From contig CAKKNE010000005.1 of the NCBI GenBank assembly GCA_918797485.1, positions 3,720,001-3,784,000 of the forward strand: DNA of 64,000 nucleotides, in the 5' to 3' direction. Positions within the stretch are counted from its first letter, which is position 1. Each line of letters opens with the position of its first letter. The notes under the pieces were generated by a model. It did no database searches, had not been told where the DNA came from, and saw only the letters and a list, made by a program, of their open reading frames with translations. Source of the DNA: Pelagomonas calceolata. Its lineage: Eukaryota > Sar > Pelagophyceae > Pelagomonadales > Pelagomonadaceae. Shown in pieces: positions 26,285-51,000 of the stretch. A program made the position numbers and the translations under genes.

Positions 26285-26385
26285 TCGACGCGGTCGCGGC
26301 GATGGCGTATGGGTGGCGCCAGACGCCATCGACGCGATGTTGTCTCCGTAGCTGCGTAGCTGCGTCTGCTCGATGGCGTGGAGGT
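26285..26385. repeat. Introner-core repeats in a 3' flank
   Basis: Between the convergent 7TM and dynein stops. GCGATGGCGTA, ACGCCATCGACGCG and CTCGATGGCGTGG occur in alternating orientation, as in the cores of C-type introners, but no reading frame is interrupted here. Confidence 0.5.
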
Positions 26386-26435: not shown

Positions 26436-29400
26436 TTAGAACTTCAGCGAGCAGAAGGCCGCCACCCCTCCTTTCGCCCACTCCAATTGATCCACTTTCC
26501 CGTCGTTGTTGACGCCGTCCTCGCGGTTCGACGGGATCTCGATCCACATGACGAAGTTCGTACTGTGCCCTGTTGTGGACAGCACTCCTCGTCGAGAGAG
26601 CACCTTGTAGATGGGGCATCTATATATTCCTCCGGTCGGCTCTGTTCTATCTTTGCAGGGCGAGAGGTGCATGATCGGGGCGGGAGAAAACAATTGTTTT
26701 GGTCTAGAATCATTGAGAGATCTAAGTTCCGGGTCCCAGCGCGCGCCCTCCAGGAACAGTCCCCGAATATAAACACCGTCCTGCGGCTTCGTCGTGATAC
26801 TTTCGGCACTAAAAGTATCTAGCATCAAAAAGTCAAAGGCGATCGTATCGATCGGATACTGCTTGCTTCGAGCGTAGTTCTGCATGGAGCCCGTCAAGAA
26901 GGCCTGCGGGAAGTAGAAGCCACTAATCCAGAAGGTCACGGGAATTCCCTTTGCAATCCAGTCCCGCACAAAGTCCAACCGCAACATGAGGTCGTCCGTC
27001 CACGGCCCCAATGGTTTTAATGAGGGATACGCTTTAGCTTCCCAGGCTCCGGGCACTTGACCTAAAGCGATCGACTGGCCCATGCTTTCCAATTCACCAG
27101 ACATCACTACTAAGCCTTGTAAAGCTTTATCTAACTGCGGCAGCGTCAGCTCCATGACGTCGACGAGTTTGTTATACCTAATGCACTCCTGGGCGAGCAC
27201 GGTGTTCATCGATTCTTCATACCTGCGCGGAGCCGTCGTATTTCAGCATGAGACGGTCGCGCGGCGGCGCGAGGTGGTCGACGCGCGTCGTCTCCAGGAA
27301 TGATGGAAGTGGGTGCTTTCTTTTTGGATTTTGAGTCGAATCGTCTCTCGACGCGGTCCGAACGGCCTCTTCAGCAAAATTGAAACCACCCACGCCCTCC
27401 TCTGATGGACACGAGTCGTTTGAATGAAGTGAAGGCGTCTCTACACGACGGGACGCCGAGATCGCACAGTACGGGGTACTGCATCTGGATGCCCGGCACG
27501 TCGAAGCGACCCCGCTGCGACAATTTCTCCGTTATGGCTGCCACTTCGTAGGCGATGAGTTCCTCGGACCCGCCGCCCCCACTACTCCCGCCGGACGCCT
27601 CCATCGTCAACAAAGTATCAAACATGCCCATCGCTTCCGTGAAGGCGCAGCTGATGTTCGCGTTCTCGTGCATGCCGAAGATCGCCGGCCCCGCGGTTAA
27701 TGGGAGCGTCTCGATGTAGTCCATGTAGCTTTGGTGCGGGTTTTCCGGGTCCGGGTCGATGCTTCGGTACGTCCCGGACGGCTCGAACGGATAGTCCTTC
27801 TCGAAGATAGCCGGTCGATAGAAGCTCTTCATGATGACGTCGCAGGTCCGGATATCGATGTAGTCCGTCACGCGCCCGCCGTAGTTTATATACGAGGTTA
27901 AAAAGCATAATACCCTGTAAGGAATCTCGTCGTACGCGTCTAAGAAGAGCTGCAACTGGTCTCTACTAATATCAAGGTCCGTCTCGTTGAACTCGTAGGG
28001 CACCTGCGCGGGAACGCGAGCGTCTCTGGTCCTTCAGTGAACCGGTTCGGACCGAGTCACGAAAACTTCAGGTTGAAAAACTGCATGCGACGCTGCGTCA
28101 GCACGTTCCAGCCGAGCGGGCCGAACTTGCGCCGCTCCTGGCAGCACGCGTGGAAGAAACATAAAGCGAACAACAATTTCCGATACGCGTCCGGCTTGTG
28201 CGTAATTTGGAGATCCGCGTCCGTCATCTTGTAGTACGTAGCTTTTAAATTTGCCTTGAGGCCTGCGTGGCACGTAGACGCTCCTGGGATCATGACGCAA
28301 CTTCAAGTTGAAGTTCAACACGCTGAGTCAGCACCCTTCGGCGGCTCGTTCGTCATCTTGACGCCATTTTGCAGTATTGAGACGGGAAATTGCGCGCAGG
28401 GCATGCTCGTGAGCCAGAGCCGGAAGTCCCTATGCGTCTTTTCCGGCGTCAAATTGTCGCAGAGCACCTCGAGGTTAATCAGCCAACTCACAAAAAGATG
28501 GCAGTTCTGCAAATAGACCCAGGTGCCCTTCTGGGCCGCGTCCTCGATCATCTGCGTGGCCTTGGGGCCCTGGCCCTGCGTGGAACGACGCCGTCGCGAC
28601 ACGGCCTCATGAAGACGCCATCGCCTCCACCAGATCAAGTTCAAGTTCATTTTTCACGCTGCGTCACGGACCTGGCCCAAGCTGAGACTTTGTACTTTTT
28701 TGTGGAACTTCATCTCGCCGCAGAAGATGTTGAAGGCTTTGGTGGGGTCGCTACCCTTGCTCAGTATAAATACTAACGGCGTCAAGTTGGACGAGTCCTT
28801 GTAGCAATTGGCCAGATTGAAGGGCGGGGGCTCGATGAACCTGCGTCGATTCATACCGTCACACGAAACTGCCGCGGCTCCCTCACGCGACGTGCAGACG
28901 CTCTGGCAGCCTCGTCGACGGCGTCACGGTGGCGGAACGTCGCATTGACGCCGTCGACGCGAAGTTGAAGTTGAGAAATTCAAAGAAATTGACGCCGAGT
29001 CAGCGACCTTTGACCCATCTTCTCGATCACGTAAGCCATGACGCCGTCCGTGACCTTGTCGACGCGCAGGCACCGCAGCACACACAACTTCTGGAAACTG
29101 TTGAGACAGTCGTTCCATTTATCGGGCAGCCTCTGTAGATGCGGCTCGACGCAATCAAAATAAGCCCGCCACGCTTGCAGGTGATTTTTGAAGTCGGCCG
29201 CGAAGCCCTCGAAATTGGCTGCCCCGGAAATGGCGCAGACCTCGGACCACATGCGCCCGTCGATCCAGCCGCCCGCGTTGCCCTCGGGCGCCGGGTTCTC
29301 CACGTCGACGGCAGCCGTCGTCTTCCCGGAAATGAGAAACCGCCACTCCGTCGCGTCGATCTCGTTCGAACCGTCGAGGATCTTCACCGTGAGTAGGAAG

Positions 29401-32400
29401 GAGAACAGGAGCTTGTCCTTCTCGAAGAGCGACCTGCGTGGCACGTCGACGCTCGTGTGATCATGACGACGCCATCACCACGTCATGTTGAAGTTCAATG
29501 AAGACGCTGAGTCAGCGCCGGCAGACGTTGACGTAGACGTAGTACGTGAAGAACGTGTTCAGGACGTCTAACCGCGCTTCGAGCGTCTCGGCCTTCTCCG
29601 CCTTCGAAATAGCGGCGACAAAGAGCGCCTGGAACCACTGCAGACTGTACTGGTACATCGGGTCGACCACGCACAGGTTCACGACCGAGAAATAGAGGAT
29701 CGTAGCCCTATAAGCCACGGGACGATACCTCTCGCGGTACGCGTCGATTTCCTGCTCCGTCACTTCCGCGTCCGCCACCTTCTCCGTGATGTCCGTCGAC
29801 GTGATTTTGGACGACGCGAGCGTCTCGATGAGCTGCGTGGGACGGTCGCGTCGACGGCGTCAACGTGTCAACTTCAAGGTCAACTTCAACACTGACTCAC
29901 GGACCTCGTGGTCATCTAAAATATTGCCGGTCGAGTTCGAGAGCATGTACAATATTTTGTCTTCGATCTCCTTGAGCTGCTTCTTCATGGACGCGTTGGC
30001 GACGACCTGCGCGGGATCACGATGTCCGAATCGGCTCGAAAAACCACCCCCGGCCTCGTCTGATGGCCACGAGTCGCATGGACGCCGCGAGACGCACGAG
30101 GCTGTTCTTCTTCTCGGCCATGTCCGGCCGCTCCTCCGCGACGACAACCCCAAGTAATTGGTCCTCGAGCCCGACCGGCGTGATGGCAAAATTTAAGAGA
30201 GACACCTTCACACAAACTTCCGGCGCGTAGTGCGGGTTCGGCAGGTTCGACGTCATGAAGAATTTGAAGCTGTCGTTCCACCTGCGTTCGGGGCAGTCGT
30301 ATCTCGGCGCGTGGCGGTCGCGCGGCGGCGTGAGGTGGTCGACGCGACTCGTCTCCGTCAGAGAAGGCGATGGGTGGTCTCTGGTCCTTCAATGAACCGG
30401 TTCGGACCGAATCGCGACTCGAACGGCGGTCGCGGTCTCGACGCGGTCCGAATGGCCTCAAATTTGGACCAGAGACCACCCACCGTCTTCTCTCATGGAG
30501 ACGAGTCGCGTCGATGGCGTGAAAGGGGACGCCGCGCGCGCGCGGGATCGTCGAGTCGCCGATCTTGATCATCTTCGTGCCGCCCTGGACGAACGTCTGT
30601 TGTAACAACAGCGGTTCCAAGGAGGCATCCAAGGTCTCGAGGACGTTCTCCATGAGGACCCACCGGCCAAACCTCACCGCATTTTCTAAAGTTCGCAGGT
30701 AATTCTTTTCCGTGAGCTTCGTGACCTCGATGCCTGCGTCGACCGACGGCGTCCCGCGCGACCATGAAGACGCCATCGACGCGACCACGTCAAGTTCAAG
30801 TTCATTTTCCACGCCGAGTCAGTGCCGTTCTCCGCGAGCGACGGGTCCCTGCCCATGTTCTTGATGTAGCGGTTCGCCTGGCCCTGGGGGTCGATGAGCA
30901 ACGGGAACCGGCGCGCCTTGGACATGATGATCCCGTTCTCGACGGACGACGCGTCCTGCGGCAATCCACAAATCGTCCAGGTCCGGATCGCGACCGGGTC
31001 CGCCAGCGTCTTCGTGATGGTGCAGCCCTCCATGTGTGGGACTGAAAGCTCCTCGAGCCTGCGTGTGTGACCCATGTCATCGTGCGATGGCCACGAGTCG
31101 CATGGGACGCCGCGGGCGCGCCGCGTCTGCCAGTGGTCCGTCATGCCCTTCCTAAAGGTAGGTGTAAAAGCTCCGGTATAAGCAATGGTCGCCGCGGAAA
31201 TCAGCGCGTCGCCCACCAGCTTCGCGTAGCTCAACTCGAGGGTCGCGCAGGACTCCGTCCAGCGCGTGCGCTCGCCGCCTAAACCCCCTATTAATTTTTT
31301 AGCCCTTTCAAGTCTCGCAGCACATTCTTCCACGTCGCGTTGTAATTGCATTTTTTTATCATTAGCTTCGTTGAACTCCTTCTCCAGTCTTTCAAGCTTG
31401 TCCATGACGGCTTTTAGTTTCGCCTGGGCCTCGGCCTGCGCGCGCGCCGCATTCACGGGAAGCGGTCCCATGTGGCGTCGCGTCGACGGCGTCCTGACGA
31501 CCACGTAGACTCGCGTGGGACCACGTTGTCTCGTGAAGACGCCATCGACGCGACCGCGGCCTCTCTGACGCGCAGCGACGATGGTGTCCGAAACAGCTCA
31601 AAAAACGACCCCCGGCATCGTGCGATGGATACAAGTTGATGACAGTTCAAGACGCGGAGCTACGCGCGAGCTTCTGCATCGTCTCCTCGAGCTCGGCCGT
31701 CGCCTCCGCTAACAATTTCTTCTTGGGCTCGACCATCACGCTGACCTGGTGGTACTTGTGCATGGCCCGCACCCACATGCACATGGCCGTGCAGGCCTTG
31801 GAAGCTTTTTGCACTTGCGCCGGCGTGAACGCCTCCATCTCGATGTAAGGGCCGATTTTGTCGATGATCTGCGCGGAACGACGGCGTCACGAAACCGTCT
31901 CCGGGCACTCCCGAGACGTGTCGACGCTCTGACGGCCACGTCGACGGCGTCACGGCGGTGTGGCATCGCGTTGACGCCATCTTCCCAAAATTCAAGTTGA
32001 GAAATTGAAGGAAATCACGCTGAGTCACTGACCTTCGTGGGAATGTTGTCCTTGTCGTAGTCCTTCATCTTGTCGATCAATTTCCCTCCTAAACTCAGTA
32101 ATTCCTTCTGGGCGGACTTGAAGTAGTTGGGGACCTTGCCCATGCCTGCGCGTGGTATCGTGGCGACGGCGTGCCGTCGCCTCGATGGCGTGCCGTCGCC
32201 GCGACGCCTCGGCGCCGTCGTCATGACCATCTGAGAGGCTTCGCGAGAGAGCCGCGGCCGCGTGTCGCGACGCGGTCCGAACGGCCTCGAAATCTCTCAA
32301 AAAACCACCCAGCGCCTCCTCTGATGAAGACGAGTCGCGTCGATGGCGTAAAGGACACTTACCATCAGGGTTCTTCTCCATCTCGGGCTTGACCGAGAAC

Positions 32401-35400
32401 ATGATGCAGCACGCCTCCATCGTCAGCTTGACGCCTGCGCGGCGGTTTCGCGTGGTGCGGGGGTCCTGCGGCGCTCTCACTTCCTCAATACGACTCGTGT
32501 CCATCTCAGGAGGCCGGGGGTGGTCTCTTTTTCGATTTTGGGCCGCGTCGCGACGCAAGGACACGGAGCGCACCGGCCGGCGGCTTGCCCATCGTCCGCA
32601 CCTCGTCGATATCTGACTTTTTTAGACTGTTAAGACACTTCACGGCCTCCTCCAACGCTGGCAACGCTTCGTCCAAATCTCTCTGGGCATCGTCCGCAAT
32701 CGCTTTCGTCTCGGCCGCCTTCGTCTGGGCCGCCTCCTCCTCGGCCGCGACGACCGTCTGCGTCTCGGCCGCGTCTCTCTTGTCCTTGTCGATGTTAATG
32801 ATCATCGCCTCGACCTCGCCCTGCGTCTTTATCAATACGGGCTCCATGGCCGTCAGTTTGACCTGCAAGTCTTCGACTTGTTCGGCCGTCGCGATCAGTT
32901 TATCTAAGCCTACTCGTAGGCGGTTCTTGAGCGTGCCCACTTCGTCGCGCTTCAACGCTAAAACTTGCTTGTACGTCGCGAGCAACTCGAGGTAGGACGT
33001 GGGCGTCACGTAGTTGTGCCGGCCGAGCTCGGCCAGAAAAGCTTCGGATCTACGCGCGACGAAGACGTGGGCGTCCTTGAAGAACGTGACGCACCTGCGT
33101 TTGATGGATACCGTCGCGACACGGCCACAGCTCTCTCACGCGACGCGTAGACGCTCCGACGGCCGCGTCGACGGCGTCGCGTGGGCGCCATCGACGCAAA
33201 TTCAAGTTGAGAAATCGACCAGCATCGGACGCTGAGTCAGCACGACTCGAGGTGAGCGTTGTTCTCGCCCAACTCCAAGTTCTCCTCCGTGAGGAGCCGA
33301 TGCGCGACGCTATGCAGGGCTTCGCGGGGCCTGCGTTGATACGACCAATCACGAGACTCGTCGAGAAGCGAGGCACGCGTCGTGACGACGCTCTCGGACG
33401 CCATCGCCTCCACCAGATCAAGTTCAAGGTCAACTTCAACACTGAGTCACGGGCCATTCGGCGAACCAGTCGATCGTGCTACAGTTGACCAATGACGGGA
33501 ACATCCTTAACCTGTTGCGGAACGCCTCGCCCAGCGGCGAGAAGCAGAGGATCAAGTGCAGGTTGGCCATGACGCGCGCGAGGTAACACGCAAAAATATT
33601 TAATTTGGTCGGCTGGAGGCGCTTCCGCATGCAGTCCTGCTTGCAGGCCGTCGTGATGGTCTCGTCGTCCTCGGGCACGTAGAGGTTCGGGACGTCGCCC
33701 TGCGTGGAATATCATGATGATGCAAGTTCAAGTTCAACTTCAACACTGAGTCACTTGCGGTATTTAAGACGTTGTTGATGTCCTCGAGCATGGCCTCAAA
33801 CACAATCTGCGTGTCGCTGAAGAGGAAGACGGCGGGCTGGGCCTTGATGCCCGCGTAGAGCAGGATCTCTTTGAGACTTTCGCGCCACTCCGACAGCCCT
33901 GTGTGGGAACGACGCCGTCGCGATACTCTCTCACGAGCCGCGTGGGCGCTCTGGTGATCATGAAGACGCCATCGCCGTGACCGCGTCAAGTTCAAGTTGA
34001 TTTTTCACGCCGAGTCAGTACCGTATCCTTTCGTGATTTCGATACTAAAAATCTTGCACTCGGCCATGAACGTCGACAAGCGTGAGAGACTTTGGCGGCC
34101 ACTCCCACCGACGCCCAGCAGCAGCATGTTGCCCTTCGGCTGGCGCAGCACGCGCGTGATGCGCGCCACGTGCGAGATCGCGTCCATGAACATGACGAGC
34201 CTGTGTGAAGTTCAAGTTGTGCTTCAATTCGGGGCCTCTCGCGGTCGTAGAGTTGCTACTCTCTGGATACGGTCGAGGGTATCAGAGGGACGTCGTGCTC
34301 GAGTTTGAGCCGAAAACATGGCCGCGGTGCCGAGATAGATGTCCACACCGTGACGCGCGGCATCGGCTGCTTCGACTCCGCATTATAATCATTGAGGTAC
34401 TCCTCGATGGTCGGTTGCAGCTGACTCATGTCCGAGACCTCCTCGTAGATGCGCGGGTCGGCCCCCGGTACCATGAAATCGGCGATGACACAACTCGATA
34501 CTTCATACTCGTCGCCGCAGTGCTTCTTCGTACACTTTTCAAGTAAATCGTCGAACCAGACGTGGTCCTCTTGATTGATCAATCTATCGCCGAAAATTCG
34601 CTGATTTTCATGCGTGTACAGTCGGATCATGCTCTGCGCCGTCTTGAATTTGGATGGGAGGACCATGAGCACGCCCTGGAAGACTTTCGAAATGTCCCTC
34701 AGGTTGAACTGGTAGTGGCTCTTCGCGGGCGTCGGCCGCAGGTCTCTGAGTATGGTGTTGTAGATCTCGATCGTAGCGTCGACGACGCCGTTCGCCAGAC
34801 TCTTAACTTCGTCCTCCCAGCCCGGTGCATTCAAAAAATTCGTTAGGATGGTCTGGAAGATCCTTTGCATGCTGCTATCCTGCATCGGCGTGTAGCCGAC
34901 GGTGTTGAAGTGTCTTGGAAAGCGTGCTGATAGTGATTGCCTCCCACCTCCGGGAGGACCGCAGGCACAAACGAAGACCACATCAATAATCTGCCGAAAA
35001 GTAAGTGCTTTGCGGTCGTACCTGCGCGGAATGGACGCCGTCGCGAGGCGCGTCGACGCTCGTGTGATCATGAAGACGCCATCGTCCCAAAGTTCAAGTT
35101 GAGAAATCGAAGGAAATCGCGCCGAGTCAGCACCAGCCGCGGTTGTCGAACCACTGCCTCAATAATTCGATGGGCGGCTGCGCGCCGTACTCCTCCTTGA
35201 GGGGCATGTTCACGTCGTCCACAAAAAGTATGTATTTCTTGCCCGCGCTGGGCCCGAAGATGCCCTTGCGCCGTTTCTCGCACTTCGCGTCGAGCAAATC
35301 TTGGACTTGATTGGCCGACGTCTGCGCGCTGAAGGTCAGGCAGATGGGCACGTATTTCAGGGGGTTGAAGCCCCCTTGCAAGTGGCGGTTCACGTTCACC

Positions 35401-38400
35401 TGCGCGGAGCATCACGAATTCACTCAAATTTGGACCAGCGCCTTCTCTGATGGACACGAGTCACATGGAAGGCACCGCAACACGTCAAAACGCCGAGTTT
35501 TGACCGTCTTGCCCGTGCCGGTGGGACCAGTCATCATGACGTGCTTGTTGTGTAGTACCAAAGTTTCTAGTAGGTATGTGTATCGGACACTGTCCGGCGT
35601 CGGGATGATGAGTTCGGCAAAGGACGCGGACGGGTCGTGCTCGTAGGGCTTGACCTGCGTTTGATGGATACCGTCGCGACACGAGCCGCGTGGGCGCCCT
35701 GGTGATCATGAAGACGACGTCGCCGCTCTCACAAAAAGTTCAAGTTCATTTTTCGCGCCGAGTCACGGACCGTGTCCATCCACGGGATCCATTTACTTTG
35801 ACTGGTGTCGTACAAATAATCATAGATCGACCCTTCCGGAGGGAGTTGGAACTGGCTCGAGTTCATGCGCATGTGCTGCCGCACGAAGACGTCCATGTAG
35901 TGCCGGCCCTCCTGGTCGACCGTGCCTGCGTTTTGTCAAGGTCTCGCGGCGGCGCTCTCGCTCCGCGGCGACGGCGTGGAGGGCACGACGACACTCTCCA
36001 GACGCCATCGACGCGAGAATCACGGATGTCCGTGAGTTCATCTCAGACGCCATCGGATCGCGGTCGCTCGACGCGGTCCGAATGGCCTCGAATTCGACAA
36101 AGAAACCACCCACGACCTCGTCTGACGGACACGAGTCGCGTCGATAGCGTGAAGGCAAACAAAAGACGCGGGAACGGGCAGCACACGCTCCAGATGAACG
36201 CGAAAAAGAAGATCGCCTCCATGTGTTCCGCGCACTGGTCGACCTCTTCCTGGGATTTATTTTCCTGGCCCTCGCGCGGGTAGAAGAGGTGGAACTCGCA
36301 GTCCATCAGATTCAGGAGCGAATCGAGGAGCGCGCCGTCGACCGTCGGGAACGGTTCATTCATCGTCCTCCTCAAAATGCCGCACGTCGCGCCGAGGTAC
36401 GTGTCGAACAAGGTCAGCAACTTCATCTTGTGCGCGGGGCCGAAGGACTCGGGCAGCCGCTCGAGCCACGACATGACCTGTGTTTGATGGATACCGTCGC
36501 GACACGGCCGCATCGACGACGTCGAGGCGGTGCGGTTTCGTGAAGGCACCGCAGCACCGCGGGACGCCGAGTCAGCACCAAGGGATCGAAGCCGAGCGAC
36601 TTGGGCTCCATGTAGATCATGCCACATCTGGAAACGGTCGCCGGAGAAGCTACTGCGAGATCTTCCGGCTCGAACATCATCGTCATCATGTCCGACAGCG
36701 ACATTATTTCACCAGAGGTCAAACAGAGCTTTTTATTATCATCCAAGACCGTGTTCATGTTCTCGATCCAGATCGCGTCCACAGGGCCATCGAACATGAC
36801 CCACTGGAGGTCGGGCGCCGTATTTTTAATACAAAGTCGCACGATGTTCGCGAGAATCCCTGCGCGGGGCATCGCGGTCAGCATCGCGGTCTCGACGCGG
36901 TCCGAACTGCCTCAAACTCGAAAAAGAAACCATCCACGGCATCGTGAGATGGACACGAGTCGCATCGATGGCGTGGAGGCGCCGCAGCACCGCGGGACGC
37001 CGAGATCGCACCGTCCTGCCACTCCAACGTATTGGGATCGAACATGCCGTACCTGCGGCGGTGTCGCGCGGTGCCGCGGCGGTCGGGCGCTCTCGCGTCA
37101 TTGCTACGACTCGTGGCCATCAGAGAAGGTCTCGGGTCCTTCAACGAACCGGTTCGGACCGCATCGCGACTCGACGGCATCGTGAGACGGCCACGAGTCG
37201 AAGGCACCTTCATAAAACGCGGCGAGCGCACAGCTGGCCCATGGTTATCGACTTCGGGTTCAAATGATGAATATCTACTTTCTCGTATTTGATGCCCTCT
37301 ATCTTATCATTCTTGAGCATCGTTAACGCTCGTTGCAGCGTCCTCACATTGGAGGATTTGCCGCCGCCCGTCGGCCCGACGACCATGAGCCCGTGCCTGC
37401 GCGGCGCATCGCGTGTTGCGGCTTCTGTTGATCTTCTTGCGCGTCGCGTCGATGGCGTATGGGGGAGAGCAGGCCGTGGGTGGTCTTTTCGTCGATTTTG
37501 AGCCGTCTCGGACCGCGTCGGGGCCATCGCGTCTCGACTCGGTCCGAAACGGCTCAAAATCCACAAACGAACCACCCACGTCATCGTGAGATGGGCACGA
37601 GTCGCGTCGATGGCGTGAAGGCACCGCAACACTTCAAAACGCGGAAATCGCACCGCACGCAGATCATCTCGTACAATTCGATATTTTTCTTGATGAAGAT
37701 GGGCACGGGCTGGAGACCCTTCTCATCAATCGCATTTTTTAATGAGGTGATGAGGGGCCCGTAGTCGAACGGCGGCCGCGCGATGCCGGGAAATAAATCT
37801 GATAATATACCATCAAAGAGAGGTAAATCATGGGCTAAAAATTTGGGAATATTGACATCTTGCAGAGCTCTCAATAGTAGAGCCTCCTCGTTCTCGTTCG
37901 GGGCCGCCCTTTTCAAATTGCCGGCCGCCGTAATCACCGTCTTCACGGCCCGCATGCCGTAGTCGTAGTGGTCCTGGCTCGACAACTGCTCGCTACACAA
38001 CCGAAACGTCGCGACCATCTTCTGGGCGCACTTGCGGCCGGCCATGTACCCGAACGCAAATAACATAATTTCGCCAATCAACGCGTAATCCGGGACCATC
38101 ATCGCCACCGGTCGGAATAACGCCTCCAAGTTGTCCGGTAACGTCGACCGCCCGGCGTAGCCGGGATTCATGGTTATGTAGACCGCAAATTCGGGGTTCA
38201 CGTTAATATCCGTGTCCTCGAAGATGCACCGCGGCTCGCCCCGCTGCACGCAGCCCTGCAGCGTCATGATCTGCTGCGCTATGACAGATAGGACCTCAAT
38301 ATTAATCCGATTGAACTCGTCGAAGCAGGCCCAGGCGCCCGCCGACGCTAGACCCTTGAAGAACTTGCCCATGGCTCGGAAATCTAACCCATCGCTACAG

Positions 38401-41400
38401 TTGAAGACGACGCATTGTTTGGCTAGGGCTTTGGCCAGATCTTTCGTGGTTTCCGTTTTTCCTGTGCCTGCTGGTCCTGCAGGGGCGCCACCGAGGATCA
38501 TCTGTAAAGCGCCCATGAGCGTGAGATAGCATTTGTCCGTCAACGGCGTGATCACGAGTCGAAACGAATTGCCGAGGTACTCATAGCCATAACTACGCTT
38601 GCTCTCAACTTGCTTCACCCACAGGTCCCCGTCCTCGTCCGAACCTTCCCAGTAAAAGCGCATCTGCGACCTGCGTGGCACCGACGCCGTCACGAAACTG
38701 CTGATGCGTCGCGTCGACGCCATCTTCCCAAAGTTGAAGTTCAACGGACGCCGAGTCAGCACTGCCAGTCGAAATCAGTAGACTCACTAACACCAGCGTC
38801 GGCCATGGCCTTCATGACGTCGCGCGCGTGGACGTCGATGACGGCGAGCGCTCCCACCGTCGTCCGCTGATTGCTACTGAGTCCCGTCCGGATGAGGACG
38901 ACCTGCGTGATGTGACATGAGCCTTCCGCGCGATGGGCGCGCCTCGAGTGCTCTCGCGAGGCGCGGAGACTCTCGGGCGGCCGCGGCGACGGCGTGGCGC
39001 GCGACGCCATCGCCGCGACGCCATCGCCGCGACGACGGCCCCGTCGCGGTCCGAACGGCCCCGAATTCGAAACAGAAACCACCCAGCGCCTCGTCTCCTG
39101 GAGGCGAGTCGCGTCGATGGCGTAAGGCCGCCGGAAAGTCACGGGACGCCGCTCCCGACCATGTCCGCGAGCTGACTTTTAATTTGCTCATAATAATCAT
39201 ACACTCCTTGATTCCCCTTCTCGGCCAGGGCCTTTTCCGTCTCGAGGGTCCAGTGCACTTGCGACCCGTTCAAGACGACCTGGCCCGGCCAGTCGAGCAT
39301 CCACCGCGTCCTTTGTACATCGGGGTACGCGCGCACGGCCCGGATCATGTGGTCCCGCACCGCGGCGCACATGGCGAGGTTCAGCTCGACCATCCAGACC
39401 TCGATGTTCTTGCCTGCGTGGCGCACGGGATCACGACGACGGCGTCGAGGCGACCGCGACGGCCCCGACACGAATGAATTGGCTCAAAATCCAAAAAGAA
39501 ACCACCCCCGGCATCGTGAGATGGACACGAGTCGCGTCGATGGCGTAAGGTTCCATATCCACGCTGCGCCACGGACCCTTGGGGTCAATATCTGTCACGA
39601 ACGGCACGACTTCTCCTTCAGACGACGTCATCTGCGAGATGCATAGACTATTATCAAATTTGACACTTTTGATGCCTTCAAAACACTTCCGCAGGTGCGG
39701 CTGGACCATCTTCGGGTCCTTCGTCTCCGACAGGATTTCGAGCAAGTCCCCGTCGCTCAAAAAGTAGAACCGGGAAAAACCCGCGCGTTTCGTCTCGAGG
39801 TAATCCGATAAACCTTTTTGGACCATATCTAAGAGATTGTTCGACTCCTGGAACTTCACGAGCAGCTTGGGGTCGTTGCAGAAGAGGATGACGGGCATTT
39901 GACCTGAACTAGCTGAACCGAGCGTCTGGCGCCAGTGCTTGTCGACGGTCGCGAAGCGCTTGCCCTCGGCCGGGAGCTGCTTGTTGATGTCGGGGGAGTC
40001 GAAGATGGGCTGCAGATACAACCAGTTCTTTTGCACCGCGATCCACCTGTGTGGGCATCGACCGGTGAGATACTGATCTCCGAGTTGATTTGTGTCTAGC
40101 GTCGCGTCGACGGCGTTTCCAGCAGAGATGCGTCCGCGGGGACGCCATCGCCGCGATCCACCGCGTCTCGCGATCTCGGCACCACGGCCCTCGGAGCGGC
40201 CCAAACTCGGACACGACCGTATCCAGAGAGCAGGACCTCGCTCCGACCGCGAGAGACCACGAATTGAAGTTTTCGACACTGCTATCCACTCGTCGAGCAT
40301 CTCCGACACCGTGTTCAAGGTCTCGTTCCACGCGTCGATGCGCTCCTCGAACGGTCCTTTGAACGCTGAAAAGCTCATGGCCTGGGTGGTGGTGATGTGC
40401 TCATCTAAGAGAGCCATGTATTCATCAATACCCCGCAACACAGAAGTCCCGGTCTCTTTATACGGTTCGATCTGCAGCGTGATGGGCTCCCAGCCTCGTT
40501 CCATCGCATCTAATGAGGTCTCAATACTGAACTCCTTGCCGGCGACCTCGCTCTGCTTTTGTATTAAGTCCACATCATCTTGTAGTTGTAAGTCAAAAAC
40601 CGTTTGCAGCGTCCAATCAGCATCAGGTTGCACCTTTTTACCTGATCTCTGGGAAATAGCTTCCCAGTGCCGCTCCCGCAAGCCTTTCTGGCGCAAGGCG
40701 ATGATCAGCGGCACATGCGGCACGAAGGCACTAACATCTTTCAAAATCGTCCTTGTAACATCTAAACACCCTGGTACACTTTCGAACTTTTTCTCGCACT
40801 TTTTGAGCGTTCTTAAAATGGTCTGGGCACTCGACTCTACAGCTTCGGCATCCAACTCCGCAAAAGGGTCGGTGAGCCAGGCCGCGTGCTGCTTGAGCCA
40901 GGAATCCACACTCTCCCACATGGCGCCGTACGGTTCAAACTTCTTTTGAATTTCTTTTAGTTGTGAATAGTCCGTGACGGGTTTGCCGAACAAGCTTTCG
41001 CGCGCGTTGTACAATCGCGCGTCGTCGTCAGCTTTACTTAAATTGCTTTTGATGGTAGCGACCTTGAGCGCGATGGAGTCCACCAATTTGAGGTCGTGGA
41101 ACTGCGACAGCGCGTCGACCTCGGACTGGTAATATTTCAGGGTCTCCGCGAACTGCGTGGGAACGACACTGCTTCAACAAAAAGTTCAAGGTCAACTTCA
41201 ACACTGACTCACGGACCTCGGCCTGGGCCTCCTCCATCTCGATCTGCTGCTTGTTCTCCAACCGGATGCACTTCTCCTCCAATTCCACACATTCGTCCGT
41301 GATTTTCTTGGGCCACGAATACAAGTCCCACCTTAATTGAAAATCGGCCTCCGGCAACTTGTAACACAACTCGTCGCAAACGGCATAATTCCGCATGGCC

Positions 41401-44346
41401 TCCTCGATCACTTTTTTGAGCGCAATCAACTTCTCGGGGACCTGCGCTTTGTAGTCGCGCAGCTCCGTGAGCGCCTCGATGTTCTGGGGCTCGATGGACA
41501 GCCTGCGCGTTTCGAAGTGTTGCGGCGCCTCCACGCCGTCGACGCGACTCGTGGTGGTCTCTTTGTCGAGTTTGGGGCCGTTCGGACGATCTCGCCCGAA
41601 ACGCGCTCAAAATCTCGTCTGATGGAGACGAGTCGCGTCGATGGCGTATGGGCCCTACGCTATCGCCGCGACCCGTGAAGATTGCTCTCTCCCTCTCTCG
41701 CGAGTGCGAGGCGACCGCGCGGTCCGAATCAGCTCAAATTTGGACCAGAGACCACCCGTCGCCTTCTCTGATGGCCACGAGTCGCGTCGATGGCGTAACA
41801 AGACGAAAGGACGCCGCGAGCGCGCCGGTCCATGATCTTCTGGAACTCGCCCGACGCGTCCGTCGCGTTGTCGCCCGTCTTTCTGGCGACGAGATCCAGC
41901 AATTTCGTCGCCGTCTCCTGGTGTTTATCGGCGAGCAATCGTCGCACTTTCTGACAAGAGACGTGGTAGGCACCAACATCCACAACTTCGGGCACCGAGT
42001 CCTCGACTCGCGACTTCTGGAGAAGGTGCTCCTCGGCCATCCTCCTCAATTCATTGACGTTGAGGTCGGGCGTGTTCAGTTCATTCCTTTCATCTTCACT
42101 GAGACCTGGAGGGGGCCCGCCGTAGTCCTCCTCGGCCTGCTCTACATATTTGTCAACATCTAGTCTCAAAAAGTCGAGGTACGGCTCGTACGTCTCCAAG
42201 TAAGCCTTGAGCGGTTCTACACTCGCAGAGAGTGCCGTACGCACTTCTTCCCTCAGTACCGACACCTGTGTGGCACGGACGCCGTCACGACACGCGTGGA
42301 CCCTCCTGGGATCGCGTCGACGGCGTCATGATGACGCCATCGACCAGACGTCAAGTTCAAGGTCATTTCTCACGCCGCGTCAGCACCCAGTCCTCGCTCG
42401 GGTGCACGCTCTTCATGACCGGCTCGAACGACCAAAATAAATTCCGCATGACGACGCGCTCGACGCGCGTGATGGACTGCGTCTGGCGCATGAGGTCGTC
42501 GAAGCGCTCCAGCGGCACATTTACAAATGAATCTAGTTTTGACGAGTACGTAAACGCATCATCCTCAACAGCTAAGTCGACAGCGAAGAGCGGCGGCCTT
42601 CTGAAGTTTGAATCGTTTGTGACGGTAGAACAGTCTTGGACAGTAACTTGTGTCTGCGTACACTGTTTCAAGAATGAAGCATAGTCATTGACAGAGTTCG
42701 TCAGTAAGGTACGCATGCAGGCCTGTGTGGCACGGACATTCTCTCATGAGACACATAGACGCTCACGCGGCCGCGTCGACGGCGTCGAGGCGGTATCGCC
42801 ACGACTCCGGCAAGTTCAAGATCACTGAAGACGCTGAGTCACGGACCTCCATCATCAGGTTGAGGCACCGCAGGAACTGTTTTAACTTGCTCTTTTTATA
42901 TATATCATCTGAAGACTCCTCGAGGTTGTACCAGCCTGCGTGGCGAGACCATCTTCCCAAAGTTCAAGTTGAAAAAGACGCCGAGTCGGCACCTTTCGTG
43001 ACGTGACGTAGGTGCTGGCGCAGACACGTCGTGACATAACGGGGCCACTCCTTCTTCAACTTAACTGCAACAGCATCCGTGGCGTCGCGCTGCAGTTTCC
43101 CGAAGTCGTCTACCCTAGTAGATTTGGCGACGTGGTTGAAGGGCTTGAGGAGGAGCATCTTCTCGTTCTCCGCCCTCACATCAGTTATGATGGCGAAGAC
43201 TTCCGGTCTTGTTAAGCACGACTGGAACCGAAAGGCGGCGAAGGCGTCTTTGTAGGATGATGATCTCTCAATGAGATGCGTGCCTCTCTCTGGTACGGAA
43301 CGTTCTTCTGAAAGTGGAGGAGGCTCTAGGAGCTGCATCAGTTCACTAGTATCAGTTTTATGTACCGCTCTGAAAGCAATCCCGTTCAGCGTCCGCGCGT
43401 AGTCCTGGGCGCAGTCTTGGACTATTTTGTCCGTCGACGGATTCAGTGCTCTCAACGTCCTCGTACACGTCGCCAAGGCCGCGACGCGTCGCAACGCGTC
43501 GTCGTCGGGCGTGGCGCAGCCCTCCGTCGGCATGCAGTCGACGCAGAGCCCGAAGAGCAGCTGCGCCTCCGCGGCCCTTCTTGCAGTATGTGCGGCTTTT
43601 ACTCTCTCAGCAAAATTGACCGGGTCCTCGGCCGCGAAGCAGATATGTAAGCGGTGCAAGGCGACTTCATCAGTGTCTGACGATGACGACGACGAGGAGG
43701 AGGATGATGATGATGATGACGCCGCGACCGGCAGTCCTGCAACGGTGTAGAGTCCCTTGTCGACGTCGTAGCCCGTGACCGTCGCCGGTGCCCAGGCGCC
43801 GACCTCGTCGTCATCCAAGACGAGCGCTTTGCACGGCAGCGCTGCGCCGAACGCGAGCCAGTCCTCGTGCACCTCATACGACGCGTCGTCGAAGGCTTCG
43901 AGCGGTAGTTTTGTCGAGGGGGCGCCAACCTTCCCGAATACTTCACTCTTGAATTTGACAGAGTAGTCGATACCTCTCTCCTTCAAAAGTTGCGTGATGT
44001 CCTGCGCCGCGTAGAGCTTCGTCCTTCTATGGATCTCCAAGGCCCGGGGCATGCCGCCGGGCTTGGGCTTGGCGGCCATGATGACCTTCGGCTCGATGCC
44101 CTCAGTTTTGACGCGCACGATGGCGTTCGCGACCGGTACACCACTACCCGAGTTATAGGTAGAAGCGGGCACCGGCGGCTTTATTTTAGGCTCCTCGGTC
44201 TCCACTACAGATAAAGACGTCACGTCCTCGCGCGCCAGGCCATATTGTAACATCTCCGAGAAGTAGCCGCGCTGCTGCGTCGTCGCGGCCGGCGGCGACG
44301 GCGGCCAGGTCTCGGCCGGCGCCGGGGCCGGGGCGGCGGCGACCAT
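26436..44346 (-). CDS. Axonemal inner-arm dynein heavy chain, 38 exons, 4158 aa
   Basis: ATP-driven minus-end motor of the flagellar axoneme. Exons (complement): 42993-44346, 42847-42935, 42387-42722, 41826-42265, 41217-41502, 40290-41152, 39577-40046, 39160-39413, 38763-38902, 37654-38670, 37232-37396, 37012-37052, 36579-36859, 36183-36477, 35771-35925, 35505-35654, 35134-35399, 34359-35021, 34022-34200, 33759-33898, 33455-33699, 33244-33330, 32574-33094, 32363-32434, 32033-32145, 31668-31868, 31122-31435, 30826-31058, 30544-30733, 30098-30281, 29905-30006, 29519-29832, 29008-29433, 28672-28840, 28335-28575, 28105-28262, 27468-28003, 26436-27222. All phases agree. P-loops: AAA1 [11 protein letters not shown] (about residue 1475) with Walker [12 protein letters not shown]2 GPTGGGKSS (1757), AAA3 GPTGTGKT (2105), AAA4 GVGGSGRQS (2451). 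The stalk and microtubule-binding domain span about 2670-3040; the C-terminus has [18 protein letters not shown]. Length and N-terminus fit single-headed dyneins (DNAH1/3/6/7/12 group); subclass unresolved. Confidence 0.95.
27223..27467 (-). mobile_element. Dynein intron 37, long C-type introner (245 nt)
   Basis: Donor GTGCGATCTCGGCG, acceptor CTCCGCGCAG, phase 2. Joins QYPVL to YEESMNTV. Confidence 0.9.
28004..28104 (-). mobile_element. Dynein intron 36, B-type introner (101 nt)
   Basis: Donor GTGCTGACGCAGCG, acceptor CCCGCGCAG, phase 0. Joins FGPLGWN to VPYEFN, an invariant dynein block. Confidence 0.9.
28263..28334 (-). mobile_element. Dynein intron 35, short B-type introner (72 nt)
   Basis: Donor GTGCTGACTCAGCG, acceptor CACGCAG, phase 1. 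Joins NEPPKG to LKANL. Confidence 0.9.
28576..28671 (-). mobile_element. Dynein intron 34, B-type introner with perfect 8-bp TSD
   Basis: CCTGGCCC is duplicated at 28569-28576 and 28671-28678 around a 94-bp element. Donor G and acceptor G come from the duplication, T and A from the element. Phase 0; joins SLGQ to GQGPKA. Confidence 0.92.
28841..29007 (-). mobile_element. Dynein intron 33, B-type introner (167 nt)
   Basis: Donor GTCGCTGACTCGGCG, acceptor CGACGCAG, phase 2. Joins EKMGQR to FIEPPPF. Confidence 0.9.
29434..29518 (-). mobile_element. Dynein intron 32, B-type introner, GC-AG (85 nt)
   Basis: Donor GCGCTGACTCAGCG, acceptor CCACGCAG, phase 2. Joins VNVCR to SLFEKDK. Confidence 0.88.
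29833..29904 (-). mobile_element. Dynein intron 31, short B-type introner (72 nt)
   Basis: Donor GTCCGTGAGTCAG, acceptor CCCACGCAG, phase 0. Joins NILDDHE to LIETLA. Confidence 0.9.
30007..30097 (-). mobile_element. Dynein intron 30, C-type introner (91 nt)
   Basis: Donor GTGCGTCTCGCGGCG, acceptor CGCGCAG, phase 0. Joins EKKNSL to VVANAS. Confidence 0.88.
30282..30543 (-). mobile_element. Dynein intron 29, fold-back C-type introner, GC-AG (262 nt)
   Basis: Contains GGGTGGTCTCTGGTCC and its exact complement GGACCAGAGACCACCC about 80 nt apart, inside longer imperfect arms, so the intron can fold into a hairpin. Donor GCGCGCGCG, phase 2; joins DSTIP to WNDSF. Confidence 0.88.
30734..30825 (-). 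mobile_element. Dynein intron 28, B-type introner, GC-AG (92 nt)
   Basis: Donor GCACTGACTCGGCG, acceptor TCGACGCAG, phase 1. Joins LAENG to IEVTKL. Confidence 0.88.
31059..31121 (-). mobile_element. Dynein intron 27, short C-type introner, GC-AG (63 nt)
   Basis: Donor GCGCGCCCGCGGCG, acceptor CACACGCAG, phase 2. Joins HWQTR to LEELSV. Confidence 0.85.
31436..31667 (-). mobile_element. Dynein intron 26, composite introner, GC-AG (232 nt)
   Basis: Donor GCGCGTAGCTCCGCG, acceptor GCGCGCGCAG, phase 0. Joins ETMQKL to AEAQAKL, keeping the stalk coiled coil in register. Confidence 0.85.
31869..32032 (-). mobile_element. Dynein intron 25, B-type introner (164 nt)
   Basis: Donor GTCAGTGACTCAGCG, acceptor CCGCGCAG, phase 0. 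Joins DNIPTK to IIDKIG. Confidence 0.9.
32146..32362 (-). mobile_element. Dynein intron 24, long C-type introner (217 nt)
   Basis: Donor GTAAGTGTCC, acceptor CACGCGCAG, phase 1. Joins EKNPDG to MGKVPN. Confidence 0.88.
32435..32573 (-). mobile_element. Dynein intron 23, C-type introner (139 nt)
   Basis: Donor GTGCGCTCCG, acceptor CCGCGCAG, phase 1. Joins KPPAG to VKLTME. Confidence 0.88.
33095..33243 (-). mobile_element. Dynein intron 22, B-type introner (149 nt)
   Basis: Donor GTGCTGACTCAGCG, acceptor CCATCAAACGCAG, phase 2. Joins NAHLES to CVTFFK. Confidence 0.9.
33331..33454 (-). mobile_element. Dynein intron 21, B-type introner, GC-AG (124 nt)
   Basis: Donor GCCCGTGACTCAG, acceptor ATCAACGCAG, phase 2. 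Joins WFAEW to PREALH. Confidence 0.85.
33700..33758 (-). mobile_element. Dynein intron 20, short B-type introner, GC-AG (59 nt)
   Basis: Donor GCAAGTGACTCAG, acceptor CCACGCAG, phase 0. Joins NNVLNT to GDVPNL. Confidence 0.87.
33899..34021 (-). mobile_element. Dynein intron 19, B-type introner (123 nt)
   Basis: Donor GTACTGACTCGGCG, acceptor CCCACACAG, phase 1. Joins ITKGYG to LSEWRE. Confidence 0.9.
34201..34358 (-). mobile_element. Dynein intron 18, E-type introner with TSD, GC-AG
   Basis: 150-bp element (34201-34350) flanked by TGACGAGC and TGACGCGC (7 of 8). The duplication supplies a GC donor. The interior holds CTCTCTGGATACGGTC, found in opposite orientation in intron 6. Phase 2; joins KQPMP to LVMFMD. 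Confidence 0.88.
35022..35133 (-). mobile_element. Dynein intron 17, B-type introner (112 nt)
   Basis: Donor GTGCTGACTCGGCG, acceptor CCGCGCAG, phase 2. Joins FDNRGW to YDRKAL. Confidence 0.9.
35400..35504 (-). mobile_element. Dynein intron 16, short C-type introner (105 nt)
   Basis: Donor GTCAAAACTCGGCG, acceptor CTCCGCGCAG, phase 0. Lies immediately after the AAA3 P-loop, joining GTGKT to VNVNRH. Confidence 0.88.
35655..35770 (-). mobile_element. Dynein intron 15, B-type introner (116 nt)
   Basis: Donor GTCCGTGACTCGGCG, acceptor CCATCAAACGCAG, phase 0. Joins PWMDT to VKPYEH. Confidence 0.9.
35926..36182 (-). mobile_element. Dynein intron 14, long C-type introner, GC-AG (257 nt)
   Basis: Donor GCTGCCCGTTCCCGCG, acceptor CAAAACGCAG, phase 1. 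Joins FIWSVC to TVDQEG. Confidence 0.85.
36478..36578 (-). mobile_element. Dynein intron 13, B-type introner (101 nt)
   Basis: Donor GTGCTGACTCGGCG, acceptor CCATCAAACACAG, phase 0. Joins LGFDPL to VMSWLE. Confidence 0.9.
36860..37011 (-). mobile_element. Dynein intron 12, C-type introner (152 nt)
   Basis: Donor GTGCGATCTCGGCG, acceptor CCCCGCGCAG, phase 1. A near-consensus C-type copy. Joins EWQDG to ILANIV. Confidence 0.9.
37053..37231 (-). mobile_element. Dynein intron 11, C-type introner (179 nt)
   Basis: Donor GTGCGCTCGCCGCG, acceptor CACCGCCGCAG, phase 2. With intron 12 it delimits a 41-nt exon. Joins TMGQL to YGMFDP. Confidence 0.88.
37397..37653 (-). mobile_element. Dynein intron 10, fold-back C-type introner (257 nt)
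   Basis: Imperfect arms of about 38 nt (GGGTGGT ... CGGACCG against CGGTCCG ... ACCACCC) form a hairpin. Donor GTGCGATTTCCGCG, phase 2; joins MICVR to HGLMVV. Confidence 0.88.
38671..38762 (-). mobile_element. Dynein intron 9, B-type introner (92 nt)
   Basis: Donor GTGCTGACTCGGCG, acceptor CCACGCAG, phase 2. Joins DFDWQ to SQMRFY. Confidence 0.9.
38903..39159 (-). mobile_element. Dynein intron 8, long C-type introner (257 nt)
   Basis: Donor GTCGGGAGCGGCG, acceptor CATCACGCAG, phase 0. The GACGCCATCGCCGC core occurs more than once. Joins SQLADM to VVLIRT. Confidence 0.85.
39414..39576 (-). mobile_element. Dynein intron 7, mixed B/C introner (163 nt)
   Basis: B-like donor GTCCGTGGCGCAGCG with a C-type interior (GGTGGTTTCTTTTTGG) and acceptor CCACGCAG, phase 1. 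Joins DIDPKG to KNIEVW. Confidence 0.88.
40047..40289 (-). mobile_element. Dynein intron 6, E-type introner with TSD (243 nt)
   Basis: CGATCCAC and CTATCCAC (7 of 8) flank a 235-bp element. The donor GTGGATAG is the first duplication copy. The internal block is the reverse complement of the one in intron 18. Phase 2; joins EMLDE to WIAVQK. Confidence 0.9.
41153..41216 (-). mobile_element. Dynein intron 5, short B-type introner (64 nt)
   Basis: Donor GTCCGTGAGTCAG, acceptor CCCACGCAG, phase 0. Joins EAQAE to FAETLK. Confidence 0.9.
41503..41825 (-). mobile_element. Dynein intron 4, nested C-type introners, GC-AG (323 nt)
   Basis: The largest intron. Two C-type cores in opposite orientation (CACGCCGTCGACGCGACTC and CGAGTCGCGTCGATGGCGT, the latter twice) indicate insertion of one copy into another. 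Donor GCGCGCTCGCGGCG, phase 2; joins KIMDR to LSIEPQ. Confidence 0.85.
42266..42386 (-). mobile_element. Dynein intron 3, B-type introner (121 nt)
   Basis: Donor GTGCTGACGCGGCG, acceptor GCCACACAG, phase 0. Joins PSEDW to VSVLRE. Confidence 0.9.
42723..42846 (-). mobile_element. Dynein intron 2, B-type introner (124 nt)
   Basis: Donor GTCCGTGACTCAGCG, acceptor GCCACACAG, phase 0. Joins NLMME to ACMRTL. Confidence 0.9.
42936..42992 (-). mobile_element. Dynein intron 1, short B-type introner (57 nt)
   Basis: Donor GTGCCGACTCGGCG, acceptor CCACGCAG, phase 1. Joins RHVTKG to WYNLEE. Confidence 0.9.
43678..43719 (-). repeat. Poly-serine triplet repeat in dynein exon 1
   Basis: Fourteen consecutive Ser codons (TCA, TCC, TCG mixed) followed by DTDEV. 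The mixed codons suggest an old or selected tract rather than a fresh expansion. Confidence 0.9.
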
Positions 44347-46327: not shown

Positions 46328-49276
46328 TTATGCGAAGACCCCCGTCAGCATCCCCGCGTCGTCGAAGCGCGCCCACCGCAGAAGAGCGTCCGGCAGGCCG
46401 TCGACGGCGGCGCCGGCCGGCAGGTCGTCCAACGCCACCGCAACTTGACTTCGGACCCGCCCCGGGCAGACGAGGCCGTGGAGCATCCAGGCCGAGCCCG
46501 CGGCCGCCCCGGGCGCCTCGGTGGCGGTCACGACCCCAAACCCGCCGTTCCGCAGCCGCCGCAGGCGCCGCCCCACGACGATGGGCGCCTCGCCCTCGGG
46601 CACGGCCGCCGTCGCCGGCGCGGTTTCAGCTAAAAACAGCTCCAGAGACCGCGCCTGGACCTGGCCGCCGGTGGATGCCGCGAGCAAAGCGGCGACCTTC
46701 CGCGGCGCCGCATCATCAAAAGGCGCCTCACTCAGCGCTTTGCCCTCCGATGAGCCCCAGTGCGTCGCGAAGGGTCGCAACAGCGGCGCGCAGAGTTGCG
46801 GCGGGATCTGCTCCATGCCTCCTCCAGCTAGTGCGGCGAAGGCCGCGTCGAAATCCACAGAACCTTCATCAGTCCCGTCGAAGGTGTTGCCCGCCTCCCG
46901 CACGGCCTTGCGGAAGGCCCTCACGAGTAGTAGTTCTGAAGAAGGTTCCTCGTCCTCGGCCTCGTCCTCGGGTTGATCCTCTGTTACTTTGTGGGGTTTG
47001 TGGAGCGACGGCGGGCCGGCCTCGGCGGCCGTTGATCGTATTAATTCTTGCAGTTCATACGCGGGCCGCGCTTCGTCTAGAGCGGCTAGAATGAGAGCAT
47101 AGAGCAGTAACGCGGCGTCGTCCCTGTCAACCGTCCGCGGGAGTCGTTTCACACCATCCTCGTGCAGGGCCTCGTACGTCGCGCAAGCGTCTACATCACT
47201 CTCAAAACCGGCCGACGCGACAACGGTAGCGACGTTAGTCTTGCGCTGCGGGATGGCTTCGGCCATGGAGCCACAAGTGCTCTCCGACAAGGCACCACAC
47301 GCGTGGAGCTCGTCGATCCAGTCGAGGCACTCGTCCTTCGTTTGCGGGGGCGCTCGCACCAAATCCCTATAGGCTCTTTCCGCTTCAAACGCACCTCGAT
47401 CACTCTTGCGTTTTGTCTGTGCTAGCTCGTCCGCGGCGGCGTCCTCCAATGCAGCACACACGCAGCAAAAGGCGCAGAGATGGGCGAAGGACGCGGGGTA
47501 GGCGAAGTTCTCCTCTCGTCTTGCTGCTGCCGCGACTACCCTAGCGTAGGCGTCGCACTCCGGTGGCGTAGGCGGTCTCGCCGAGTCCAAGATAGGTAGA
47601 GCAGCTTGCGAAGCGCAGACCTGGGACAACGCCTCAGCTATCAACGACCTATCTGAATCCGAACCGTCTAAAGCCAGGTCTAGAGCCTCACCACAAGTCG
47701 CGATGGCCTGGGCAAACCGAGGACCCTCCAATGCTTTGCGAGAAGCCTCTGGTAGATTGACCGAAGACAAGCACGCCGCCCCGTGCTCCACACAATCTCT
47801 GAACGACTCCAACGCCGTCGTTCTGATGGGAATGCGTCGCAGCGTGCGCGTCGGCTCTTGGACAGGAGCCAACACTTCTGTCTTAGGAACGGGCGACGGC
47901 ACGTCCTCTGAATTCATCCTCCGCGTCTCGGCCCGGATGCCCGTCCAGAAGCCGCCCACGTGTTTGATCTTGTCAATTTCTGACAAGTGAGCCGTGTAGC
48001 CTGGAGCAAAATACGCGGCGACGTCGTGCTCGCTCCTCCGATAGGCGTCCAGCGACGGGAAGGCCAGGTCCACACTCACCGTGTGTTCCTTGGCTATCGA
48101 CGAGAACAGCATGTCTCTCGGGAGACCTTCCGGGTCGGCCGGGAGCTGATGCATTGGGTCCAGCACGTGTTTGTCGCGCTTGATATGTCTACGCATTTGC
48201 CCGGCCACTCGAGTCTGCCTTTCCACAATTTCTTGCGCCGTTAGTTCGGGTTCTGGCATGACGTCGGGCGTCTCCTGCGTGGGAACGACACCGTCACAAA
48301 ACGACCTCACGAGGCGCGTGGGCGCTCTGGCGACCGCATCGACGCCATCGCCTCCACCAGATCAAGTTCAAGTTCATTTTTCACGCCGAGTCAGTACCGG
48401 GAAGTCCTCCTCGTAGTACTCTTCGAATTGCTCCGAGGGCGCCGGCGCCGGCGCCAGCTGCAACCCTTTCTGCTGCTTTTTACGCAAAGCGTGCTCTTCT
48501 AAAGCTTCCTGCACGAGTGCCGGTCCCGTCGGTAATCTGAGACCGAGATCCCGCATGCGCTGCGCCATCCCGGGGTCCTTGATCTTCTTGGGGCCGTAGG
48601 CGTCCAAGCGCTGTCGGACTTCGTCGTAGGCACTTCGTCGAGCCTTATACAGCTTTGTTTTGGACTTGCCCAATCGTGAGTCGACGTCGCGGATCCGCGC
48701 GAGGTCTAGCAACACTTGAGGAGCGGTCTCGTCGTAGTACTCCTCGTCGTCGCCGTAGCGCGGTAACGACTCCGCCTCCAAGGCTATTTTAGCTAGTTCC
48801 TTTCCCATTTCTAGTTCGGTCATCCGCCCTCGATCTAGCGCCTTGAACAGAGCACCGCGCGCGCAGTAGCGATAGTAGTCGTCCCACTCCCTCGCCTCCT
48901 GGTCCGTCGCGTAACTAGGTGGAGGGGGCACGACGGCGTCCTCGGGCAGCGGTGTGGCTTCCTTCTTCTTTTGAGGAGCGGTGCCCGGCGCCGATGGTAC
49001 AGTATCGGCGTCTTGACCACCGCCGAGGTGGAACATCAGCGAGTGGTCGACGCGCAGGCCCGGCTTCTTCGCGAGCGTTTCGCGCTGCAGGTCCGCATCG
49101 AACTTGCGCTGCGTCGCGAGGTGCTCTTCGTAGAGGCCTTTGGCGCGGTCGGCGACGGACTCGCGCGCGCGCTTCGACGCTTCCAGCAGGATGTCGATCT
49201 CGGTAATGTCATCTTGGAGTTTGGCCATGGGCGTCGGCGGGGGCTTCGTCGGTAGGGCGCCGGGCGGGGAGCGCAT
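46328..49276 (-). CDS. Unrecognised two-exon protein (941 aa)
   Basis: Exons complement 48398-49276 and 46328-48274, joined in phase 0 (EDFP-ETPDVM) around a B-type introner. The start is the ATG of MRSPPGALP; an internal MAKLQDD 16 codons on is equally plausible. The N-terminal half is helical and charged (DILLEASKRARESVADRAKG, LYEEHLATQRKFDADLQRE), suggesting a coiled coil, followed by EWDDYYRYCARGALFKALD. The second exon begins with a conserved-looking stretch (EIVERQTRVAGQMRRHIKRD). It then has helical repeats rich in Ala and Cys, an acidic linker, and a small globular C-terminus. No domain could be named. Confidence 0.65.
48275..48397 (-). mobile_element. B-type introner (123 nt)
   Basis: Donor GTACTGACTCGGCG, acceptor CCCACGCAG, phase 0. 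Very close in sequence and length to dynein intron 19, which suggests recent common ancestry of the two copies. Confidence 0.9.
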
Positions 49277-50846: not shown

Positions 50847-50855
50847 CTCCCCCGC

Positions 50856-50947: not shown

Positions 50948-51000
50948 GGTCGTACGTGTGAAAGTACTAGAAGTAAACTAAACTTATCTGTGAATTCCCC

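Follow-up and report, generated by a model that had tools for sequence, protein, structure and literature searches.

The window analysed here, the whole stretch of 64,000 nucleotides from contig CAKKNE010000005.1 of Pelagomonas calceolata, contains on its minus strand a gene whose start ATG lies at 44346 and whose stop codon ends at 26436 (Table 1). As far as can be read from sequence, it is an intact axonemal dynein heavy chain gene, with a predicted product of 4,159 residues and 0 internal stops. DNAH1 or the chain of 8glv named DHC2 came first in each of six solved-structure searches along the chain, and these two are its nearest solved relatives; it is probably an algal flagellar-motor gene. 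The first-pass annotation had read a coding sequence of about 12.5 kb in 38 exons, and the model presented here, with 12,480 bp, 38 exons and 37 introns, bears this out. A serine run, encoded by a short coding repeat, was seen in the variable N-terminal part of exon 1 (approximately 43675-43725).

The gene model was obtained by splice-aware dynamic programming, in which codons and splice profiles were scored and repeats penalised; it returned 38 introns and was edited manually. Two adjacent predictions were replaced by one in-frame intron (intron 24), and the donor of intron 23 was shifted, guided by the frame, to restore a dynein motif. An earlier model with 35 introns was dropped because several of its donors were misplaced. 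Since repeat depth in exons was penalised, the intron boundaries and the repeat nature of the introns are in part interdependent, and the independent check on the boundaries was provided by the protein alignments to solved dyneins. In the printed alignments, inspected by eye, 35 of the 37 junctions were free of gaps within 3 residues; that of intron 23 is without independent value because its donor was moved to fit the dynein motif. The exceptions were intron 7, with one extra residue, and intron 28, with five extra residues placed two residues upstream. A 4-residue insertion was found at 0 of the 37 junctions in the same inspection. The five residues at intron 28, extra with respect to the DHC2 relative, may be an insertion remnant or plain divergence. 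Reading frame and homology together suggest that splicing would take place at the 37 sites listed, and the earlier statement that all junctions keep phase and rebuild conserved dynein sequence held up, the open reading frame being intact and the junctions gap-free as described.

The 37 introns sum to 5,431 bp, with a median of 124 bp. Their donors are GT in 27 cases and GC in ten, and their acceptors end in CGCAG in 31 and in CACAG in six. In blastn comparisons (E<=1e-3), every intron matched another intron of the same gene, 36 of the 37 on the same strand; among 37 length-matched exon segments, 0-5 had a match in 20 control draws, pairs with starts <350 bp apart being left out. By alignment and similarity, the introns were placed in families A (20), B (15) and C (2), in agreement with the first-pass annotation, according to which nearly every intron could be assigned to a few repeat families. 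Its two donor motifs, GYGCTGACTC and GYGCGATCTC, were confirmed for part of the set only: ten introns have a third type of donor, similar to GTCCGTGACTC, and introns 6 and 18 belong to a family of their own.

Table 1. Features of the window. Intron coordinates are from the manually edited gene model; intron families are from intron-versus-intron matches and alignment.
Feature	Position	Strand	Family or type	Remarks
Dynein gene	26436..44346	-	axonemal dynein heavy chain, DNAH1/DHC2 type	38 exons, CDS 12,480 bp; gene model and PDB relatives
Intron 1	42936..42992	-	A	
Intron 2	42723..42846	-	A	
Intron 3	42266..42386	-	A	
Intron 4	41503..41825	-	B	GC donor
Intron 5	41153..41216	-	A	
Intron 6	40047..40289	-	C	opposite orientation to intron 18; 8-bp direct repeat GTGGATAG/GTGGATCG
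Intron 7	39414..39576	-	B	B body, A-like donor end
Intron 8	38903..39159	-	B	
Intron 9	38671..38762	-	A	
Intron 10	37397..37653	-	B	foldback, MFE z -7.4
Intron 11	37053..37231	-	B	
Intron 12	36860..37011	-	B	one arm
Intron 13	36478..36578	-	A	
Intron 14	35926..36179	-	B	GC donor
Intron 15	35655..35770	-	A	
Intron 16	35400..35504	-	B	one arm
Intron 17	35022..35133	-	A	
Intron 18	34201..34358	-	C	GC donor; 8-bp direct repeat GCGCGTCA/GCTCGTCA
Intron 19	33899..34021	-	A	
Intron 20	33700..33758	-	A	GC donor
Intron 21	33331..33454	-	A	GC donor
Intron 22	33095..33243	-	A	
Intron 23	32435..32573	-	B	other arm; donor placed manually
Intron 24	32146..32362	-	B	two predicted introns merged by hand
Intron 25	31869..32032	-	A	
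Intron 26	31436..31667	-	B	GC donor
Intron 27	31059..31121	-	B	remnant, GC donor
Intron 28	30734..30825	-	A	GC donor
Intron 29	30282..30543	-	B	foldback, self-inverted over 177 columns, MFE z -13.5, GC donor
Intron 30	30007..30097	-	B	one arm
Intron 31	29833..29904	-	A	
Intron 32	29434..29518	-	A	GC donor
Intron 33	28841..29007	-	A	
Intron 34	28576..28671	-	A	
Intron 35	28263..28334	-	A	
Intron 36	28004..28104	-	A	weakest assignment
Intron 37	27223..27467	-	B	
Copy outside the gene	18019..18139 (approximate ends)	+	B	in plus-strand reading frame; by similarity
Copy outside the gene	18565..18696 (approximate ends)	+	B	near the preceding copy; by similarity
Copy outside the gene	48265..48400 (approximate ends)	-	A	closest to intron 19
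Copy outside the gene	52362..52460 (approximate ends)	-	C	third copy, orientation as intron 18; 8-bp direct repeat GTTCGACC/GTTCGACA, by eye
Copy outside the gene	59170..59330 (approximate ends)	-	B	closest to intron 12

The alignments of families A and B extend to both intron ends, i.e., to the splice sites, and the two families have in common a CTCGGCGTC-like sequence near the donor and the CRCAG end. The fullest copies of family B are long foldbacks. Intron 29 is self-inverted at 78% identity of the aligned columns, and the RNA fold z-scores of introns 29 and 10 (Table 1) compare with means of -3.16 for B and -0.3 for A (60 shuffles each). Several B copies have retained a single arm, as read from the alignment (one arm in intron 12, the opposite arm in intron 23), and this can explain most of the opposite-strand matches of B without inverted insertion. 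Introns 7 and 13 are mosaics of A and B, which hints at recombination or common ancestry of the two families.

Introns 6 and 18, the two members of family C in the gene, match each other in opposite orientation only, in two collinear blocks (E 1e-13 and 1.7e-4); since neither is self-inverted, one must be an inverted copy. Direct repeats of 8 bp, identical at 7 of 8 positions, flank all three C copies of the window (the third by eye). At introns 6 and 18, the left repeat begins at the modelled donor and the right one directly after the acceptor. Only 3 of 1,332 mismatched intron-flank pairs reached 7/8 at the same place, and among the matched pairs that of intron 14 reached 6/8, with 21 mismatched pairs as close or closer. 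A donor at the repeat start reproduces the length of the dynein relatives at both introns; the alternative in-frame donor, 12 bp further on in both, would add four residues. When the termini of the three C copies were tested for inverted repeats, the result was not significant (p 0.54-0.96), although all six ends resemble CNGTGTG by eye.

The exon sequence directly downstream of the introns follows a GY rule. Its first base was G in 34 of the 37 cases (11.5 expected at matched codon phase) and its second was Y in 33 (17.3 expected); GY together was found in 30, with 16.0 expected among the 34 with G and 0 of 100,000 simulations reaching 30, and the third position was near background. Moreover, the start of the intron echoes the start of the downstream exon over the first 2, 3 and 4 bases (p = 0.009, 0.006 and 0.003; without family C, phase-matched shuffles), with p = 0.08 over the first 8 bases (without C, shuffled within phase). 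The echo was not significant in any subset alone, i.e., A introns with GYGCTGACTC donors (11), introns with GTCCGTGACTC-like donors (10, including intron 7) and B introns without intron 7 (14; lowest p 0.054), and long target duplications were not found at A and B introns. Because the echo fades at 8 bases and the subsets are non-significant, target duplication is weakly supported for 35 of the 37 introns. The second exon base was C after 7 of the 10 GC donors versus 7 of the 27 GT donors (Fisher test, p = 0.02, or 0.04 with family C excluded), a pattern that points to copying of the donor dinucleotide from the target, with some donors perhaps changing later from GC to GT. The GY exon start is also compatible with insertion into proto-splice sites without duplication. 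A repeat at an offset of 12 bases across the junctions (z 5.0, above the maximum of 1,000 shuffles) was rejected as an artefact of codon phase, the best z anywhere being 3.96 (P = 0.158) when phase was kept in the shuffles; the rejected signal resembled a published 8+4 bp pattern.

Based on these results, it is very probable that the 37 introns originated from repeated insertions of short, non-autonomous, MITE-like DNA transposons (introners) into exons of this one dynein gene, with the copies coming from a dispersed pool. Each element would carry the 3' splice site in the CRCAG at its end, and the 5' splice dinucleotide GY would come from the target; insertion would duplicate this target, and splicing would thereby give back the original message. 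In family C, the 8-bp duplication starting with GY is read from the sequence in 3 of 3 copies, and its GY would be used as the donor; for A and B, where the duplication would be only 2-3 bp, the GY rule and the weak echo point to the same co-option. The first-pass annotation had likewise taken the introns for introner insertions, and families reaching the splice sites, the precise rejoining of the protein, the 8-bp repeats of C, the GY rule and the dispersed copies all support this.

An RNA route for A and B, by reverse splicing into proto-splice sites (MAG/GY) and subsequent reverse transcription, would leave C as the only DNA transposon. Such a route would agree with target duplications in A and B that are never longer than 2-3 bp, with the proto-splice-like flanks (the last base of the upstream exon is G in 25 of 37 cases, in addition to the G at the first downstream position in 34) and with the full-length alignment of the A and B copies in the sense direction of the dynein gene. 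However, the second donor base echoes the exon, if weakly, family B has the foldback typical of MITEs, and selection would also leave sense-only survivors, so that this route seems unlikely.

Outside the gene, 11 copies were recognised in the remaining 46 kb of the window by similarity to the dynein introns only, so that other families would be missed. The tally started from 14 clusters, of which the fragments 26287-26347 and 50846-50875 were dropped because they do not lie in clear genes, and 53318 and 53419 were merged. By hit strand, the copies lie mostly in the sense of their host reading frames, and a copy at 53137 with a single hit on the opposite strand is compatible with the other foldback arm. 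Pfam domains identified only some of the host genes (UCH, EF-hand). An EF-hand stretch on the minus strand (50977-53850), assumed to be perhaps one gene, has five introner copies at 51.2-53.5 kb, one of them of family C, and is a second intron-rich place among unbroken neighbours. The unbroken neighbouring reading frames with clear domains encode a sugar transporter, a 3-hydroxyacyl-CoA dehydrogenase and a class I aldolase. The dropped fragment at 26287-26347 is short and B-like, lies between the dynein stop and a plus-strand reading frame, and is possibly a non-genic copy that could help to locate the true ends of the element. Searches of viral contigs with 20- and 22-base patterns gave no relatives (one 220-residue exon gave 9 pattern matches and 0 relatives), and one exact 20-base match in prokaryote genomes, on a bacterial contig, is about what chance would give by our own estimate. 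Rfam at the gathering threshold and a tRNA scan returned nothing in the whole window.

The 37 copies in the 17.9 kb of the gene versus 11 in the other 46 kb (binomial p 2e-12 for this post hoc contrast) could be seen as a sign of local multiplication by tandem duplication, gene conversion or local hopping. This is very unlikely, as neither in A nor in B was the similarity of copies related to their distance (Mantel r 0.035 and 0.041; p 0.65 and 0.64) and 11 of the 35 A and B introns had their best partner outside the gene, where 23% of the candidates lie; both results point to a dispersed pool as the source of the copies. That the introns are old and the repeats entered them later, without a gain of 37 introns from repeats, is likewise very unlikely, since, although nested or recombining events may have occurred in introns 7 and 13 with their mixed A and B features, the similarity within A and B extends to the splice sites at both ends and the target repeats of C start at the donor and directly after the acceptor.

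In six exon-length ranges, which were chosen after the lengths had been seen and with nucleosome spacing in mind, exons <70 bp were rarer than expected under random insertion (1 vs 7.2, p = 0.0015), as were those of 0-100 bp (4 vs 9.8, p = 0.008), exons of 140-200 bp were commoner (10 vs 4.2, p = 0.005; p = 0.016 each for 147-207 and 130-210 bp), and those of 300-420 bp, about two nucleosomes, were not enriched (3 vs 4.8). The overall distribution of exon lengths did not differ from the exponential (K-S p = 0.12).

As a proposal, the copies accumulated in the dynein gene probably because it is long and tolerant of insertions. In the available text of PMC9860276, introners are described as biased towards lowly expressed genes; as to codon bias, taken as a proxy for low expression, the GC3 of 0.751 in the dynein gene falls inside the 0.674-0.906 spanned by 12 other reading frames, and the bias index is length-dependent. 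We would also put forward, tentatively and with some doubt, a combined view: family C would be a two-way introner, each end of which offers a donor beside the copied target and a CRCAG acceptor and gives a clean intron either way, and the dynein gene would be a true hotspot of accumulation in an otherwise intron-poor genome.

The 37 separate insertions in one gene amount to an internal replicate experiment on the conversion of a transposon into an intron. It informs on the target rule, the source of the donor, the possible change of donors from GC to GT, the spacing and the orientation, and the co-option model would be testable copy by copy given empty-site strains or long cDNA reads.

Introners that are DNA transposons are already known, in pelagophytes as well, and the dynein gene would show this known process at high density. 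GC content and the form of family C make a pelagophyte source plausible. Those of Aureococcus anophagefferens and Micromonas pusilla are reportedly short non-autonomous DNA transposons that make introns, carry one splice site and co-opt the other from the duplicated target; precise splicing and nucleosome-sized exons are also said to be found there. Compared with these by description, not by sequence, families A and B differ in a duplication of 2-3 bp at most. Introner family 4 of Aureococcus sp., according to the available text of Gozashti et al. (2022; PMC9860276), has an 8-bp target duplication and adds 12 bp to the transcript. Family C is similar in its 8-bp duplication and in the in-frame donor 12 bp further on in introns 6 and 18. 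However, unlike in family 4, its donor at the repeat start matches the length of the dynein relatives, and therefore no 12-bp addition is needed, though one may occur. The search method in the same text allowed for copies in opposite orientation, so that two-way insertion as such was foreseen.

For P. calceolata itself, the available text of Guerin et al. (2022; PMC9481584) describes a GC-rich genome with an intron-length peak near 210 bp, called characteristic of introner elements, and a mean of 0.45 intron per gene, versus the median of 124 bp and the 37 introns in the dynein gene. The introners of Amoebophrya, as described in the accessible part of PMC7789003, are similar in their inverted repeats and hairpins, with direct repeats (3-5 nt) that span the boundaries, but have largely non-canonical splice sites, in contrast to the GT/GC-AG of the dynein gene. 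Similarly, thousands of near-identical introns gained at new gene positions were reported for the introner elements of Micromonas, for which the authors preferred a reverse-splicing origin and noted that no secondary structure was evident, whereas family B folds strongly (Verhelst et al. 2013; PMC3879977); a maximum count of introners per gene was not given in the text available. In the literature searched, which covered few subscription papers and some sources in part, no description of a dynein gene as an introner hotspot was found. The dynein gene extends these known systems in two respects: the count of separate insertions that this single coding sequence holds, and a family occurring as an intron in both orientations within the same gene.
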